This document shows, one piece after another, positions 5,035-37,071 of a DNA stretch of 38,003 nt; positions within the stretch are counted from its first letter, which is position 1, and the number at the start of each line of letters is the position of its first letter. The notes below the pieces were generated by a model. That model saw only the letters and a program-made list of their open reading frames with translations, was not told the origin of the DNA and searched no databases. The stretch lies in NCBI GenBank assembly GCA_024398365.1, contig JAKSJG010000012.1, positions 1 through 38,003 of the forward strand, given 5' to 3'. The translations under genes were made by a program, and so were the position numbers. Source of the DNA: Bacteroidales bacterium (GTDB taxonomy: Bacteria > Bacteroidota > Bacteroidia > Bacteroidales > UBA932).

Positions 5035-6960
5035 ATGATGAGAAAACATTTGTCAATTATTTGCGCTGCAGCCGTCGTTTTCGGCGCAGCATCCTGCCAG
5101 AAGGCAAACATCAATGATGCATCTGTCGCATCAGACGCTGCCCTTAGGTCGATAACAGTCAGGATGCCGGGCAACGGCACCAGGCTGGGCCTTGACGAGG
5201 CCACAAATTACACCGTATTTGAGGTGGGGGACGAGGTTTTCGGATGGGATGCATCCGGCAGCTATACATACTCCTGTACTTCAGTCGATGCCGACAAGGC
5301 CGAATTCGAACTGATCAGCGATTACGCTCCGTCTTCCGTGGCCGGCACCAAGGTCAATCTGGTATATGCCAACGGCTATGATGAAGAAGACATTGCCGGC
5401 GGCGCACTTTCCCTCGATATCAAGGGCCAGAACGCCACGGCCTTCAGCCAGCTTCCGTTCGTGATGACAGCCCAGGGCGTCGTCGCAGAGGATGGCGGAT
5501 GCGAGGTGACCTTCAGCAACGAGACCTCATACATCCGCATCAAGGACTGCCCGACTCCCGCAGCAGGTGGCATGAGCTTCTATTCCGTGGAGGCCACGAA
5601 CCTCTACCCGCAGATGACACTGACCATCGGCGCTGACGGCAATTTCGTCAGGACAGTCGGTGCGGCCGCCACCATAAAGAACTCCGCTGAGATCATATCC
5701 GATCAGGACGGAAAGATTTCGGGCTGCATGGCCACTTTCGCTTCACCGGAAGCTGCTTCCGAAGCAAGTGTCGTCTTCACCGCAGAATCTGCCGAGGGCT
5801 TCCTGTATTACTATAATGCCGGCAAGAAGACGGTGCCTGCAAACAAGATCATCAGCATATCTGAAAAGGCGTTCACCACGGAAATACCGCAGGTGGGCAT
5901 TGCGGAAATCGTCGAGTCCGGCGACAGCTTCACCGACTTCACCGCCGCCGTGACTGCCGCCAATGCATACAATGGCCATTGCACCATCGCAGTGCTCAAG
6001 GACTTCACCAATACCGCAGCCCAGACTATCAGCAATCCTGCCGGTGTCACCCTCAAGCTCAATGGATACACTCTCACAATATCCGGCAAGTCAACCAGGA
6101 TATCGATCGCTTCCGGCAGCACACTGACCATTGAAGGCGAAGGTACATGCACCATGGCCACCGCAACCAACAATTTCGTCCTTGACCAGGAAAACTCCAC
6201 TCTCATCCTCAATGGCGGTACTCTCAGCACCGGTGGCACTTATGCAGTCGTTTATGCCACCAAGGGCAACTTCATAATGAACGGGGGAGAGGTCACAGAC
6301 AGCGGCCGCCAATCCCTCGCACTTGACTTCGAGTCGCCTGGCAAGATGGAGCTCAATGGCGGCAAGGTCACCGGTGGCAGTTCAAAGCACGGTGCTGTAT
6401 ATATCGGCAATACCGGAGCCAAGGTCGAAATCAACGGCGCGGAAATCAGCGCTCCATACGCTACCGACAACCCGGCTCTGAATCTCTATTCCGGCAAGCT
6501 TGTGCTCAACTCCGGTAAGATCGGATCCAAGAATGACCGTTGGGGAATCAAAGTGGGCAACGGCAGCTTCGAGATGAACGGCGGCACCATATCAGCCGCG
6601 AGATATCCTGTATATTGCGCCGGCACAGGTGATATTACCTTCACTGGCGGTAATGTGGTTGAAATCAACGCAGGATGGAAAGTTTTCTTCGGAAGCAGCG
6701 ATGCCAAAAACAAGGTCACTATCAAGGACGGATATTTCTTCACTCCTCACAGTGCCACTTACCCGGGCTTCTATACCTTCGGCGGCACTCTCACCAATAT
6801 GACAGTAGAAGTCTCAGGCGGCTATTTCACTGAAGACCTTCTCGATGCGACTGCCGGCTACAACGGCAAGATCTCCGTCAGCGGCAGCGTGGTTCCTTGC
6901 ACTGATATCAAGGACGGCAACGGCAACAAATATTCTTATCAGATCGTTCCTGTATTATAA
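5035..6960 (+). CDS. Lipoprotein with fimbrillin-like N-terminus and parallel beta-helix-like C-terminus
   Basis: The predicted product has 641 residues. The signal peptide ends in the lipobox GAASC (Cys about 21). The N-terminal half resembles Mfa/fimbrillin-like surface proteins, with the RITVR...GTRLGL strand pair and a GDEVFGWD segment corresponding to the W..GD motif. From about residue 295 the chain becomes a run of short beta repeats built on L-N-G-G / M-N-G-G turns about 20-25 residues apart (for example LILNGGTL, FIMNGGEV, MELNGGKV, FEMNGGTI), typical of right-handed beta-helices of surface adhesins or polysaccharide-binding proteins. No catalytic motif is obvious. The ribosome binding site AGGGAGGA at 5023-5030 suits ATG at 5035 or 5038. 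It follows small ORF 1 by 10 bp and precedes the next lipoprotein by 4 bp. The likely location is the outer membrane surface, inferred from family and signal. Confidence 0.8.
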   Translation: MMRKHLSIICAAAVVFGAASCQKANINDASVASDAALRSITVRMPGNGTRLGLDEATNYTVFEVGDEVFGWDASGSYTYSCTSVDADKAEFELISDYAPSSVAGTKVNLVYANGYDEEDIAGGALSLDIKGQNATAFSQLPFVMTAQGVVAEDGGCEVTFSNETSYIRIKDCPTPAAGGMSFYSVEATNLYPQMTLTIGADGNFVRTVGAAATIKNSAEIISDQDGKISGCMATFASPEAASEASVVFTAESAEGFLYYYNAGKKTVPANKIISISEKAFTTEIPQVGIAEIVESGDSFTDFTAAVTAANAYNGHCTIAVLKDFTNTAAQTISNPAGVTLKLNGYTLTISGKSTRISIASGSTLTIEGEGTCTMATATNNFVLDQENSTLILNGGTLSTGGTYAVVYATKGNFIMNGGEVTDSGRQSLALDFESPGKMELNGGKVTGGSSKHGAVYIGNTGAKVEINGAEISAPYATDNPALNLYSGKLVLNSGKIGSKNDRWGIKVGNGSFEMNGGTISAARYPVYCAGTGDITFTGGNVVEINAGWKVFFGSSDAKNKVTIKDGYFFTPHSATYPGFYTFGGTLTNMTVEVSGGYFTEDLLDATAGYNGKISVSGSVVPCTDIKDGNGNKYSYQIVPVL

Positions 6961-31435: not shown

Positions 31436-32572
31436 ATGAAACGTTCCATCATAATCACCGGCGGCGCGGGCTTCATCGGCTCGCATGTAGTAAGGCTGTT
31501 TGTCAACAAGTATCCCGAATACGACATCATCAACGTTGACAAGCTCACCTATGCCGGCAATCTCGCCAATCTCAAGGATATCGAGGACAAGCCCAACTAC
31601 AGCTTCGTCAAGGCGGACATCTGCGATTTCGACACCATTTACGCGCTGATGCAGGAGCGCAAGGTGGACGGCATCATACATCTGGCCGCGGAGAGCCACG
31701 TGGACCGCAGCATCAAGGATCCTTTCACCTTCGCGAAAACCAATGTGATGGGCACTCTGAGCATGCTCCAGGCCGCCAAGCTCTACTGGGAGAGCCTTCC
31801 GGAGAAATGGGAGGGCAAGCGTTTCTACCACATCAGCACGGACGAGGTATATGGCGCTCTCGAGCTGACCGATCCTGACGGCATAGAGTCTCCGTTCACC
31901 ACCAAGGCCTCTTCTGCACAGCATCATCAGGCCTATGGCAGCGAGTTCTTCCTGGAGACCACCAAGTACAATCCACACAGCCCGTACAGCGCTGCAAAGG
32001 CAAGCAGCGACCATTTCGTAAGGGCTTTCCACGATACCTACGGCATGCCGACGATAGTGACCAACTGCTCCAACAACTACGGACCTTACCAGTTCCCGGA
32101 GAAGCTGATCCCGCTTTTCATCAACAACATACGTCACCGCAAGCCGCTGCCGGTATATGGCACCGGTGACAACGTGCGCGACTGGCTCTTCGTGGAGGAC
32201 CACGCCAGGGCCATAGACACCATCTTCCACAACGGCAAGGTGGCTGAGACCTACAATATCGGCGGCTTCAACGAGTGGAAGAACATTGATATCATCAAGG
32301 TGCTCATCTCCACCGTTGACAGGCTGCTCGGCAGACCGGAAGGCGCCGACCTCGACCTGATCACATACGTGACGGACCGCGCCGGTCATGACAAGCGCTA
32401 TGCCATCGACTCCCGCAAGCTCCAGAGGGAACTCGGCTGGGAGCCGAGCCTGCAGTTCGAGGAGGGCATAGAGAAGACAGTCAAGTGGTATCTCGACAAT
32501 CAGGAGTGGATGGACAACGTCACCTCCGGCGACTACCTGAAGTATTACGAAGAGATGTATAATAACCGATAA
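31436..32572 (+). CDS. rfbB: dTDP-glucose 4,6-dehydratase
   Basis: The 378-residue short-chain dehydrogenase-type enzyme has the NAD motif GGAGFIGSH (9-17), STDEVYG (134-140) and the YxxxK pair Y184/K188 in YSAAKASSD. It turns dTDP-glucose into the 4-keto-6-deoxy intermediate for deoxysugars such as rhamnose. The insert between STDEVYG and YSAAK is longer than in E. coli RfbB, as often in Bacteroidota. RfbA, RfbC and RfbD are not in the window. It is 6 bp from both neighbours. Confidence 0.95.
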   Translation: MKRSIIITGGAGFIGSHVVRLFVNKYPEYDIINVDKLTYAGNLANLKDIEDKPNYSFVKADICDFDTIYALMQERKVDGIIHLAAESHVDRSIKDPFTFAKTNVMGTLSMLQAAKLYWESLPEKWEGKRFYHISTDEVYGALELTDPDGIESPFTTKASSAQHHQAYGSEFFLETTKYNPHSPYSAAKASSDHFVRAFHDTYGMPTIVTNCSNNYGPYQFPEKLIPLFINNIRHRKPLPVYGTGDNVRDWLFVEDHARAIDTIFHNGKVAETYNIGGFNEWKNIDIIKVLISTVDRLLGRPEGADLDLITYVTDRAGHDKRYAIDSRKLQRELGWEPSLQFEEGIEKTVKWYLDNQEWMDNVTSGDYLKYYEEMYNNR

Positions 32573-32578
32573 ATCCGT

Positions 32579-34735
32579 ATGGCACCTAAATACAGAATCC
32601 TTCTGCTTTTCGTCATCTCGATGATCGTGACATGGTTCGTGTTCCGACCTATCCTGAAGATTGCGCAGCAGAAGGGGATAGTGGACAATCCTGACGCCCG
32701 CAAACTTCAGCGTGTGCCGATTCCGGTACTGGGAGGCGTGGCGGTCTTCTTCGGCATAGTCGTGGGACTGTGCTTCTTCAAGACCATGCTGAGCTTCACG
32801 AGCCTGTTCGCCGTGCTTACGGCCATGATTGTGATGCTGTATCTGGGTACCATCGACGATATTCTCAATCTTTCCCCTTTCCTGCGCCTGGGCATTGAGG
32901 TGGTGGTGGTGACCCTGCTGATATACGGCACCCATTATTCGATGTGCAACTTCCAGGGCCTCTGGGGTATAGACCAGCTTCCTATCATATTCTCCGTGCC
33001 TCTGAGCATACTGACCATGGTGGGCATCATCAATGCCATCAATATGATAGACGGCGTGGACGGTCTGGTGTCAGGCTTCTGCATAGTGGCCTGCACTCTG
33101 TTCGGCGTCATATTCTTCTGCGAACACGAGTACTCCTTCGCCGCACTTGCGGCCGTTACCGTGGGCGCGCTCATACCTTTCTTCCTGCACAATGTCTTCG
33201 GCATCAAGTCGAAGATGTTCATGGGTGACGGAGGCACCATGATGCTGGGCATCGTGATGTCCTCGTTCGTGATTGCGCTCTGCAAATACCGCATCGAGTA
33301 CAATTTCCTGCTCAATCACCAGTTCGGCGTGCTGGCGTTCTCCCTGGCAGTGCTGGCGGTGCCGATATTCGACACCCTGCGTGTGATGATCTACCGTGTG
33401 CTCCACGGCCATTCTCCTTTCTTCCCGGACAAGAACCATCTGCATCATATCTTCATCGAGTTCGGCTTCTCCCACATAGGCACGACAATGTCCGAGATAG
33501 TGCTGGAACTTTTCGTCGTGGCTGTCTGGGCTCTTGTATGGAGTGCCGGCGCACCGGTTGACATCCAGCTCTACTGTGTCATAGCGGCTTCGCTGCTTGT
33601 GACCTTCGGCGTTGCCGCCTTCCTCAAGCGTGAGCTCAAGCGCAAATCATTATGCAGCAGGGCCATCAGGGCTCTGGCTTCAGGTACGCATATAGAGTGG
33701 GACGGTTTCTGGCTCAAGATACAGAACTTCGTGGACGGCAAGTCCGCCGTACTTGCACTGCTGCTCGTTCTGCCGATCTTCGCCTCCTGTTCCATGTTTG
33801 AGACAGCTGTCGAGGAGGAGGAAGCAGGCTATGGACCGGACGGGCTCTATTATACCCCGAATCCGACATGCATCGCCATATTCGGCGACATTCAGGTTTA
33901 CACCGAAAATGAAGAGCTGGTACAGAATTATGTGAACTCCCTTCAGTGGCTGAAGGATAGGCAGCTCCGTGATGCTGACATCTCATGCATACTTCACACC
34001 GGCGATGTGGCGAATACCAATATGGGCCACCAGTGGCGCCGCTTCCAATCCAATACATCAATTGTGTCCGACTGCATCCCATACTACACGAGCACCGGCA
34101 ATCATGATTATGACTGGAATGCGGAGGAGGTCATCACCGACCGCAACTCTTCCGGCCTTAACCAGCATTATGATTTTCCTTACCTGGCCAAGAACCTGCT
34201 TGCCGCTTATGAGGAGGGCAAGCTTGACAATGCTGTTTTCAGCAACAGGTTCGCAGGGCAGAATATGGATATAATGATGCTTGAATTTGCGCCGCGCGAG
34301 GACGTGCTGAAGTGGGCCGGAGAATATCTGGCCGCTCACAAGGATACCAGGCACATACTCGTCACCCATGAGTTTCTGTGGCGCGACGGCACACTCTTTA
34401 CCGACAAGCCGTATTCCGAACGGCAGTTCCGCGACTTGTCAGCCTCCTCCCCGTATGAGATATGGAGCAGGCTCGTGGCCCCCAATGACAACATAGCCTG
34501 CGTGCTCTGCGGCCATGTGTCAAACTTTGTCAGAGTGGTCGAACTCACATCCATGAAGGGCAAAGTGCCGGCTGTCGAGTTCAACCTTCAGGACGAGAAG
34601 GACGGCGGCGACGGCTGGATAATGCTATGGAATGCGAAGAATCCGGATGACAGCGTGTCGGTGTCCATATACAATACGGTCAGTGGCAAGTACTATCAGA
34701 ACAGGCCGGTATATGCCAAGTTCAAATTCAGATAA
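32579..34735 (+). CDS. WecA-type phosphoglycosyltransferase fused to a calcineurin-like metallophosphoesterase
   Basis: The 718-residue frame has two parts. Residues ~1-360 are a polytopic MraY/WecA-family transferase with DNPDARKLQ (36-44), GTIDDILNL (90-98), NAINMIDGVDGLVSG (152-166), FMGDGGT (214-220) and DKNHLHHIF (284-292); it would move a sugar-1-phosphate to undecaprenyl phosphate at the inner membrane. Residues ~430-718 resemble a calcineurin-like phosphoesterase: FGDIQ (435-439), HTGDVAN (473-479), GNHD (507-510), VTHEF (595-599) and CGHVSN (644-649). The junction (388-404) is KSAVLALLLVLPIFASC, a hydrophobic segment ending in a lipobox. It may be an extra helix placing the phosphoesterase in the periplasm, or the signal of an internally started lipoprotein (GTG at 33731). 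Usual WecA homologues end near residue 360-380. Confidence 0.85.
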   Translation: MAPKYRILLLFVISMIVTWFVFRPILKIAQQKGIVDNPDARKLQRVPIPVLGGVAVFFGIVVGLCFFKTMLSFTSLFAVLTAMIVMLYLGTIDDILNLSPFLRLGIEVVVVTLLIYGTHYSMCNFQGLWGIDQLPIIFSVPLSILTMVGIINAINMIDGVDGLVSGFCIVACTLFGVIFFCEHEYSFAALAAVTVGALIPFFLHNVFGIKSKMFMGDGGTMMLGIVMSSFVIALCKYRIEYNFLLNHQFGVLAFSLAVLAVPIFDTLRVMIYRVLHGHSPFFPDKNHLHHIFIEFGFSHIGTTMSEIVLELFVVAVWALVWSAGAPVDIQLYCVIAASLLVTFGVAAFLKRELKRKSLCSRAIRALASGTHIEWDGFWLKIQNFVDGKSAVLALLLVLPIFASCSMFETAVEEEEAGYGPDGLYYTPNPTCIAIFGDIQVYTENEELVQNYVNSLQWLKDRQLRDADISCILHTGDVANTNMGHQWRRFQSNTSIVSDCIPYYTSTGNHDYDWNAEEVITDRNSSGLNQHYDFPYLAKNLLAAYEEGKLDNAVFSNRFAGQNMDIMMLEFAPREDVLKWAGEYLAAHKDTRHILVTHEFLWRDGTLFTDKPYSERQFRDLSASSPYEIWSRLVAPNDNIACVLCGHVSNFVRVVELTSMKGKVPAVEFNLQDEKDGGDGWIMLWNAKNPDDSVSVSIYNTVSGKYYQNRPVYAKFKFR

Positions 34736-34741
34736 TAAGAG

Positions 34742-35545
34742 ATGAAGTATATAGACAGTGAGGAGATGAAGCTGATCCAGATGGACATTCTGGATGCCCT
34801 GCAGAGGTTCTGCATGGAGAATGGCTTGACATACAGCCTCTCCAGCGGTTCTCTCATCGGTGCGGTGCGTCATGGGGGTTACATCCCCTGGGATGATGAC
34901 ATCGACGTGTACATGCTTCGCGCTGACTACAACCGTCTGATGGAGAAGTTCCCGGAAGTGTATGACGGCCGTTTTGCGATAGGCTCCCTGGAACGCAATC
35001 CGAAATGGGACAGGACTTTCGCCAAGATGTACGATAATCGCACGGTGCTTGTCGAGAACCGCAGGGATGCGGTGGAGACAGGCATTAATATAGACATTTT
35101 CCCAATTGATGAGGTGCCTGCCGACGATACAATGTGGCTCAGGTATAACAAGCGCAGATATTTCTTCTGCCATCTCTTCGAGGTCAAGGACAGGCTCGTC
35201 AGAGACAATACACGTTCCTGGTGGAAGACCGTAGTGCTGCTGCCGCTCAAGGCACTTCTGCTGCCGTGGAGCAAGCGCACCATGGCGGAGCGCATCTCAG
35301 CCTTTGCTCAGAAATGGAACGGCTGCAACTCCGGACGAGTTTACAATTGCGCCTGGGGTGAGGTATTCGATCCTTTCAGCAAATCCCTCTTCGATGAGAT
35401 CATCGACATACCGTTCGAGGACAGGACATTCAAGTGCTTTGCAGGCTACGACGAATATCTTCGCGCCACCTACGGGGACTATATGAAACTTCCTCCTGAG
35501 GACAGGAGAGTGTCGCATCATAAATTCAAGGCCTGGTACAAATAG
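34742..35545 (+). CDS. LicD-family phosphotransferase
   Basis: The 267-residue protein has the LicD fold signature LSSGSLIGAVRHGGYIPWDD (33-52), directly followed by DIDVY, the nucleotidyltransferase-type catalytic region. LicD proteins transfer phosphocholine or related phospho-groups onto glycans; other members add glycerol-phosphate or ribitol-phosphate. It lies 6 bp after the WecA-phosphoesterase fusion gene and 2 bp before the flippase gene, so it probably decorates the polysaccharide made by this locus. The phospho-group donor is unknown; no choline kinase or CDP-choline gene is visible. Confidence 0.88.
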   Translation: MKYIDSEEMKLIQMDILDALQRFCMENGLTYSLSSGSLIGAVRHGGYIPWDDDIDVYMLRADYNRLMEKFPEVYDGRFAIGSLERNPKWDRTFAKMYDNRTVLVENRRDAVETGINIDIFPIDEVPADDTMWLRYNKRRYFFCHLFEVKDRLVRDNTRSWWKTVVLLPLKALLLPWSKRTMAERISAFAQKWNGCNSGRVYNCAWGEVFDPFSKSLFDEIIDIPFEDRTFKCFAGYDEYLRATYGDYMKLPPEDRRVSHHKFKAWYK

Positions 35546-35547
35546 CT

Positions 35548-37071
35548 ATGGAGAAGGACAACGCAAAGAGGCTGGCAAAGAACACCGTGCTGCTTTTCAT
35601 CAGGATGGTCATCGTCCTGCTGATATCGCTGTACACTACCCGCGTGGTGTTCAAGGCCCTCGGCGTTGACAACCAGAGTATCTACAATGTGGTCGGCAGC
35701 GTGGTCATCTTCTTCGGCTTCCTGAAGAATGCGCTGACCAACGCCACATCTCGCTACCTAACCTTCGAGCTCGGCACCGGCAACAGGGAGAAACTGCGGC
35801 AGATATATTCAATGGCCATCAACTGCCACATCATCCTGGCGGCCATACTTCTGCTGCTGCTCGAGATAGGCGGTGTCTGGTTCATCAACCATCAGCTCAA
35901 CATAGACCCTTCAAGGATGGCGGCGGCCAACTGGGTGTTCCAGTTCTCTCTGCTGACCTTCTGTCTCGGCATAGTCCAGACTCCTTTCCATTCAAACCTG
36001 ATAGCCCACGAGAAGATGGGCTATTACGCTTTTCTGAGCATACTTGATGCGGTGCTCAAGCTTGTGGTGGCTTACCTTCTCTATATCAGCCCGGTCGATA
36101 AGCTCATATCCTACGGATTCCTGCTCTGCGTGGAAGCGGTCATCATCTTCTGCTGCTATGCTCTTTACAGTTCGAGGAAGTTTGACGACACCGAGTACAT
36201 AAAGTTCTGGGACAAGGGCATAGTGGGTGAGTTCGCCTCATATTCGGGCTGGAGCCTGCTGGTCAACGGTGCGGACATAGCCACCCAGCAGTGCATAGGC
36301 ATATTCTTCTTCAATCTGCTGGGCAAGGTTGCGAATGCCTCACTGGGCTTTGCGAACCAGGTGAGTGCCGGCATAGGCATGTTCGTGGCCAATTTCTCCC
36401 AGTCCTACAAGCCTCAGATAGTCAAGTCATACGCATCCGGGGACAATGATTATTTCCACAAACTGATATTCTCCGCCTCCAAGATTTCCTTCCTGCTGTA
36501 CCTCCTGGTGGCGGTTCCAATAGTGGCCAATGTGGATTTCGTGCTGAAGATATGGCTCGGCGACTATCCTGAGTTCACTCCGGCATACATAGCCGTGATA
36601 ATTGTCTATTTCCTCTTCGACTCCTTCCAGGAGCCGCTCTGGCAGGCGGTCCATGCCACAGGCAAGCTCCGTACTCATCAGATAATGATAGCCTCGATCA
36701 AGGTGCTCGCCATTCCGGCGATGTATTTCGTGCTCAAGTCCGGCAGCTCCGGCACCGTGGCTTTGGGCATCTGGGCGTGCCTGAATGTGGCCTGCGCGGT
36801 GTCGAGGACCATATATATGCATTTCCTCATCGGGCTCGACCTGAAGGCCTACCTGTTCAAGGTGATCCTGCCTCTCGTGCTGCTGTTCGTTGCGGCTGTG
36901 CCGCTGCCGATCTGGGTTGCGCATCGCATGGGATCCAACTTCGGAGCATTTGTGGTGTCATCCGCAATTGCAGTGACGGTCATTCTCCTTGTCGGGGTTG
37001 CGGTGGTGCTGGACAGATCCGAGCGCAGTCTCCTGAAGGGCGTGCCGGTGATTGGTAAATTCATCAAATGA
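35548..37071 (+). CDS. Polysaccharide flippase (Wzx-like)
   Basis: The 507-residue protein is hydrophobic throughout, with about 12-14 predicted helices and no signal peptide. It has the features of the MOP (MATE/PST) superfamily, e.g. KNTVLLFIRMVIVLLISLYTTRVVFKALG at the N-terminus and the segment GMFVANFSQSYKPQIVKSYASGD around residue 275. It would flip undecaprenyl-linked oligosaccharide repeats across the inner membrane. It starts 2 bp after licD and ends 7 bp before the glycosyltransferase gene. Typical for an O-antigen or capsule locus; no Wzy polymerase lies in the window. Confidence 0.9.
   Translation: MEKDNAKRLAKNTVLLFIRMVIVLLISLYTTRVVFKALGVDNQSIYNVVGSVVIFFGFLKNALTNATSRYLTFELGTGNREKLRQIYSMAINCHIILAAILLLLLEIGGVWFINHQLNIDPSRMAAANWVFQFSLLTFCLGIVQTPFHSNLIAHEKMGYYAFLSILDAVLKLVVAYLLYISPVDKLISYGFLLCVEAVIIFCCYALYSSRKFDDTEYIKFWDKGIVGEFASYSGWSLLVNGADIATQQCIGIFFFNLLGKVANASLGFANQVSAGIGMFVANFSQSYKPQIVKSYASGDNDYFHKLIFSASKISFLLYLLVAVPIVANVDFVLKIWLGDYPEFTPAYIAVIIVYFLFDSFQEPLWQAVHATGKLRTHQIMIASIKVLAIPAMYFVLKSGSSGTVALGIWACLNVACAVSRTIYMHFLIGLDLKAYLFKVILPLVLLFVAAVPLPIWVAHRMGSNFGAFVVSSAIAVTVILLVGVAVVLDRSERSLLKGVPVIGKFIK

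Follow-up and report, generated by a model that had tools for sequence, protein, structure and literature searches.

Enzymes of the WecA type are polytopic polyprenyl-phosphate N-acetylhexosamine-1-phosphate transferases (PF00953, TIGR02380), and WecA lies in the membrane with its N-terminus outside and its C-terminus inside. Calcineurin-like metallophosphoesterases (MPEs) have the canonical metal motif DxH...GD...GNH(D/E)...H...GHxH, the residues of which are usually metal ligands, and the known C55-PP phosphatases are BacA/UppP and PAP2 proteins. Passages of PMC5222938 describe the catalytic motifs of WecA and assign it ten to eleven transmembrane domains, and a section of PMC12784632 gives 11 for the enzyme of M. 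tuberculosis. The nearest architecture in print that we found to the one reported here is a polytopic YkuE-type phosphoesterase using Sec and Tat, as portions of PMC5449189 present it. A sequence-only reading of the DNA, made without database searches, had proposed that a WecA-type transferase is here fused to a phosphoesterase and had known of no described fusion of this kind; none was found in the open-access literature either.

The window, by which we mean the whole stretch of 38,003 nt that was analysed, is an entire contig of a Bacteroidales assembly of 1.94 Mb (91 contigs, 79% complete). It contains a single uninterrupted frame of 718 aa on the forward strand, running from the ATG at 32579 to the stop codon at 34733–34735 (Table 1). 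The first part of this protein is like WecA and its relatives in its motifs, its 11 predicted segments and its glycan cluster, but whereas its unfused relatives stop with the cytoplasmic tail or close to it, the window protein adds one further segment and a phosphoesterase of 290 residues. Pfam places Glycos_transf_4 (PF00953) at residues 77–233 (E 4e-30, 105.4 bits against a cut-off of 27) and Metallophos (PF00149) at residues 432–647 (E 7e-8, 33.5 bits against a cut-off of 21.5). The DD, NxxNxxD, GD and HxHH motifs are all present, and D93, D94, N152, N155, D158, D217, H287, H289 and H290 are invariant in a 10-row alignment (A2). With the single frame and the two Pfam matches, these invariant catalytic residues bear out the proposed fusion and its claim that all WecA motifs are retained. 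The top NCBIfam match is TIGR02380 (ECA_wecA; residues 9–322), and as its 161 bits fall under the curated cut-off of 326 we keep the name WecA-type, which is safe as judged from the sequence, and leave unassigned the sugar specificity, which this match does not settle. The WecA part also matches two MraY chains in a PDB sequence search. The only other PF00953 match of the window genome (C1:99904-100509) has an MraY-like start and neighbours that by eye resemble peptidoglycan-synthesis genes, and the genome's one PF02397 transferase lies on a different contig.

Table 1. Features of the fused gene and its neighbours, in window coordinates.
Feature	Position	Strand	Basis
NAD-dependent sugar-nucleotide dehydratase, upstream gene, same place in G013	31436..32572	+	Pfam GDP_Man_Dehyd/Epimerase
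Fused gene, WecA-type transferase + hydrophobic/lipobox-like segment + calcineurin-like phosphoesterase (MPE), 718 aa	32579..34735	+	ORF, Pfam, NCBIfam
WecA-type part including cytoplasmic tail, residues 1–388, 11 hydrophobic segments	32579..33742	+	Pfam, GES scan, alignment
WecA C-terminal tail, residues 350–388, 9 K/R and 4 D/E	33626..33742	+	GES scan, unfused relatives
In-frame GTG, codon 385, candidate internal start of the sequence-only reading	33731..33733	+	Context scoring
Junction hydrophobic segment, residues 389–404, ending at C404 (lipobox-like IFASC)	33743..33790	+	GES scan, comparison with G013
Acid-rich linker, residues 405–428	33791..33862	+	Translation
Calcineurin-like phosphoesterase domain, residues 429–718	33863..34732	+	Pfam, alignment
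LicD family phosphotransferase (PF04991), only LicD match in the assembly	34742..35545	+	Pfam
MatE-type protein, probably polysaccharide flippase (Wzx-like)	35548..37071	+	Pfam

A second species of the genus, G013, encodes the same two-domain frame, with an identity of 62% over residues 1–653. Its contig ends within the fused gene, and the last 141 bases are the first 141 bases of contig C36, on which the frame continues to its stop, with LicD and a flippase-like gene coming next, so that the order RfbB-like gene, WecA::MPE, LicD and flippase is common to both species (the upstream dehydratase at 31436..32572 we take to be RfbB-like). An artefact of assembly or binning, or two genes made to look like one by an overlooked frameshift or stop, could be suspected from the incomplete and fragmented window assembly (79%, 91 contigs) and from the split of the G013 gene over two contigs, but we consider it highly improbable, since two diverged species have both the fusion and its gene order in common and both frames remain open through the junction despite their length differences, with no frameshift needed to be assumed in either.

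The fusion is rare. Of 40 genomes of the genus, 11 match the protein and only the window genome (G000) and G013 carry the fused form, which is what became of the suggestion to look for the architecture elsewhere. In the overlapping wider samples the MPE is matched in 56 of 398 genomes of the family and 21 of 393 of the order. Three MPE matches beyond these two species lie in frames of more than 600 aa (G209, G567, G468), and these have other architectures; the WecA query matched none of their ORFs of at least 300 aa. Among the matches listed for PF00953 frames in 198 genomes of the order, the next longest after that of the window, at 720, measures 551 and has a front extension only, and plasmid records gave only distant MPEs (17 records, all below 60% identity).

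Between the two species the WecA core is 73.5% identical (dN 0.185, dS 0.90) and the MPE 53% identical over 227 codons (pN 0.32 against pS 0.78, with synonymous sites saturated), and both parts appear to be under selective retention. Identity is 48.5% over the 33 codons of the tail, 35% over 17 codons of the linker and 23.5% over 17 aligned codons of the junction segment. The junction is by this comparison free to vary, yet in both species it has remained hydrophobic, with a small residue and a Cys at its end. The WecA parts of the two species group at 92/97 in the tree, a value below the program's star limit, with the unfused G016 and G010 nearby. These closest unfused WecAs (L003 and L004, 65–66% identical) are situated two genes after an OmpA-like gene, as seen by eye; they are without the tail and in another setting, and the fused gene therefore does not simply occupy the position of those wecA genes. 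Elsewhere, a WecA-type protein of RUG14092 (L027:4968-6398), 42–45% identical to that of the window, is extended at its C-terminus by about 80 residues of another kind, in which no hydrophobic segment is obvious by eye. At one locus (L147:1541-7613, G496:C6) about 6 kb contain three WecA-type frames, and long stretches of two of these are nearly identical, which suggests a recent duplication.

The location of the join is consistent with the loss of a stop codon. Six unfused relatives (G076, G021, G029, G019, G022 and G039) stop 4 to 13 residues past the D that aligns with D386, which places the join at the natural end of WecA. The window tail, GFWLKIQNFVDGKS, continues directly into the hydrophobic segment, as would fit a stop lost ahead of a following lipoprotein gene, and in G013 a KKGETTGGG stretch lies between tail and segment, possibly a remnant of the charged start of an old signal. 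In the GES scan the segment spans residues 389–407 (19 residues, mean GES 2.18; 1.77 in G013) and contains LVLPIFASC, which ends at C404 (nt 33788–33790). Compared by eye with a PROSITE-type lipobox pattern, both proteins have the [AGS]-C end, as IFASC in the window and SLQGC in G013. The hydrophobic segment with C404, the Cys of which G013 also has, upholds the earlier description of the junction as lipoprotein-signal-like. It differs from an N-terminal lipoprotein signal in being internal, after 388 residues, unless translation starts at GTG 33731. The export signals of Bacteroidetes surface lipoproteins, which passages of PMC5080379 give as K-(D/E)2 or an SDDDD-like string directly following the Cys, are by eye absent from both CSMFETAV (window) and CGPEPT (G013), where a single Glu stands at +5 and +4, respectively, and acidic runs occur only 8–9 residues past the Cys.

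Both proteins contain 12 hydrophobic segments in a 19-residue GES scan, 11 in the transferase and one at the junction. The loops at 26–47, 88–103, 155–162 and 268–306 and the tail at 350–388 fall on the same side and carry the DD, N..D and HLHH motifs. The tail is positive, with 9 K/R against 4 D/E (12 against 4 in residues 350–394 of G013). As the MPE lies one crossing past this tail, it is predicted from hydrophobicity, segment parity and charge to be on the side away from the catalytic loops, which is the periplasm. The segment count and loop parity thus support the earlier suggestion that an extra helix puts the phosphoesterase there, as far as hydrophobicity can tell.

The phosphoesterase has the motifs D437-x-Q439, G475-D476, GNHD (507–510), H597 and G645-H646, and differs from the full canonical metal motif in having DxQ for DxH and GHVS for GHxH. 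Because two canonical metal-ligand histidines are absent, the site may bind a single metal, or may be altered, and activity is not certain. In an alignment of 46 sequences the second His of GHxH occurs in none and D-x-Q in all, the rows from outside the clade described below having been filtered for DxQ and G(N/D)H(D/E) in frames below 520 aa (40 of 40 loci gave at least one row). Among 36 further MPE frames taken without the motif filter, 34 have a DxQ-like string and none has GHxH. DxQ-subgroup MPEs of Bacteroidales (PF00149) are thus like the window MPE in their Pfam match and in their D-x-Q, GD, G-(N/D)-H, H and GH motifs; in the 44 others compared there is no WecA, whereas the window MPE has its export segment internally, behind a polytopic enzyme. 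The sole match below 0.01 in a PDB sequence search with the MPE was diphosphonucleotide phosphatase 3zk4 (E 2e-5); each of the remaining 11 rows stood at 0.37 or worse.

In the MPE tree the fused domains group with the free-standing MPEs of G170 and G407 (100/100) and then with that of G109 (95/90), although the program warns of long branches, so that the deeper joins of the clade may be false. Pfam assigns Metallophos to all three. The proteins of G407 (MRRRGLYTAILAALTVFAAC) and G170 (MRIVSLLAALSLLLSC) begin with lipoprotein signals, as does that of G109 if its start is the ATG of MNSK; the latter (CSREDN) comes near the surface-export signal by eye. The window genome also encodes a free-standing MPE paralogue (G000:C17:3331-4038; L146:3226-4332), 29% identical and with a secretion-like N-terminus, and no LicD was found in the 13.5 kb around it.

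LicD lies within 6 kb of the MPE in all five loci of the clade (six-frame translations), its frame starting 4–7 bases after the fused frames and lying 3.5–5.6 kb from the three free-standing MPEs. At the loci of more distant MPE homologues it was found in none of 80, which cover 81 other MPE places counted in the family and order lists and are 3.2 to 19 kb long, some truncated where their contig stops and some sharing a genome with another locus, and absence therefore weighs less in the short ones; at four of the 80 (L183, L184, L185 and L188) even the MPE profile fell short of the 1e-5 threshold. For LicD we used a profile made from the five clade genomes, which detected its positive control, the LicD of G039 (L076). 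Each clade genome has exactly one LicD match, and any LicD at all is found in 102 of 398 genomes of the family. A nucleotidyltransferase (G407) and a CTP-transferase-like protein (G170) are encoded beside the free-standing MPEs, and in G109 a thiamine-diphosphate enzyme lies two genes upstream. In G170 the MPE is followed by two genes that look CapA-type by eye (L105:8215-9366 and 5577-6725), with LicD further along. A WecA profile, which detected the WecA of three control loci, found none in the 16.8–19 kb stretches around the three free-standing clade MPEs and none at the 80 distant loci, and relatives with the two halves as separate genes, which the sequence-only reading had named as evidence against a fusion, were thus not encountered there.

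That LicD lies near the MPE in five of five clade loci and in none of 80 others leads us to favour a phosphate-linked glycan decoration over undecaprenyl pyrophosphate as what the MPE would act on, although the neighbourhood may reflect only residence in glycan clusters, where many genes gather. The sequence-only reading had placed the phosphoesterase near the undecaprenyl-(pyro)phosphate cycle, and a phosphatase of undecaprenyl phosphate or pyrophosphate coupled to the transferase would indeed suit a domain fused to an undecaprenyl-phosphate-using enzyme and predicted to face the periplasm. We nevertheless regard this as quite improbable, as the three free-standing relatives have LicD in their vicinity and no WecA within the stretches searched, and the MPE part matched neither BacA/UppP nor PAP2 in Pfam. 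Of the earlier interpretation as a whole, the true fusion, the lipoprotein-signal-like junction and the periplasmic placement have held, and the undecaprenyl role finds no specific support, the neighbourhoods of the closest homologues pointing to LicD-type decoration.

Whether the junction would be cut is the point on which the remaining readings diverge. We consider processing at C404 by Lgt and LspA somewhat the likelier outcome, because the lipobox-like Cys is kept and the free-standing relatives look like lipoproteins; LspA (PF01252) is encoded in both fusion genomes, and the open-access literature searched gave no example in which signal peptidase II cuts after a polytopic protein. Next most likely after such a cut polyprotein is a tethered two-sided enzyme, in which the junction stays uncut as a twelfth transmembrane helix and holds the MPE beside the transferase at the inner membrane. 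To this we give a considerable chance, though one short of even: the segment is hydrophobic enough for a helix by its GES means in both proteins, and polytopic YkuE-type MPEs with four transmembrane segments and an exported phosphoesterase are in print (sections of PMC5449189), but the Cys kept at the segment end while the rest diverged and the lipoprotein-like look of the free-standing relatives speak against it. The sequence-only reading had also offered initiation at GTG 33731, giving an ordinary lipoprotein from within the wecA frame, and here the evidence is divided. The GTG at codon 385 is conserved in both species, and its context in the window outscores 98% of 491 in-frame ATG/GTG codons within 18 window genes (a reference chosen by hand, all with ATG starts). 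The G013 site, on the other hand, is ordinary, with 15% of internal codons scoring higher, and the unfused G021 (L006), which has ATA at the same site, scores as high (2.81; the other five unfused relatives are lower), so the KIQ(K/N) codons by themselves can produce a start-like context. Nor does the tail (33 codons) show greater conservation at synonymous sites than the core does (pS 0.72 against 0.52). We thus give the internal start little weight and hold it to be improbable; should the gene give two products, a cut by signal peptidase II, which the earlier reading did not name, would be an equally simple route to them.

On balance we put slightly more belief than doubt in an inherited fusion of a WecA-type priming enzyme and a periplasmic MPE that acts on LicD-added substituents, with processing at C404 somewhat favoured. 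A single loss of the stop that separated wecA from the next gene, one for a lipoprotein, would have occurred in an ancestor of the two species. At the cytoplasmic face the WecA-type enzyme would use undecaprenyl phosphate to prime a surface glycan, and its tail, judging from segment parity and charge, would lead into the former lipoprotein signal, which as twelfth segment would carry the MPE to the periplasm. There, as the gene neighbourhood suggests, the MPE could trim or turn over the phosphate-linked substituents that LicD adds to the same glycan, and Lgt and LspA acting at C404 would produce a membrane transferase and a separate lipoprotein from one polyprotein. The more specific version, in which signal peptidase II cuts the internal signal to give transferase and lipoprotein MPE in a 1:1 ratio, the latter editing a phosphate-linked decoration, we put forward tentatively and as a possibility on the unlikely side. 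Were signal peptidase II to cut here, the gene would be a natural test of lipoprotein signal function inside a polytopic protein. The fusion would in addition couple a phosphoesterase across the membrane to the step that opens surface-glycan synthesis in the cytoplasm, and the link of a small MPE clade to LicD-type clusters suggests which class of substrates could be tested on enzymes whose metal motif is unusual.

Compared with known systems, the window protein is like the YkuE-type MPEs in having several transmembrane segments followed by an exported phosphoesterase, but these have four segments with a twin arginine directly before the last, according to parts of PMC5449189, whereas the window protein has 12. 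Its tail before the last segment reads HIEWDGFWLKIQNFVDGK, without the twin arginine. In the fbcH cytochrome b/c1 polyprotein of Bradyrhizobium, a polytopic and an exported protein are encoded in one frame with an internal signal that is cut by signal peptidase I; the window motif is instead of the signal peptidase II type, and its cutting is putative. The pneumococcal phosphorylcholine esterase, an enzyme of a different fold from the MPE and not itself fused, works with LicD-decorated teichoic acid, and it resembles the role proposed here for the MPE in being an esterase that acts on a LicD-added phospho-ligand.
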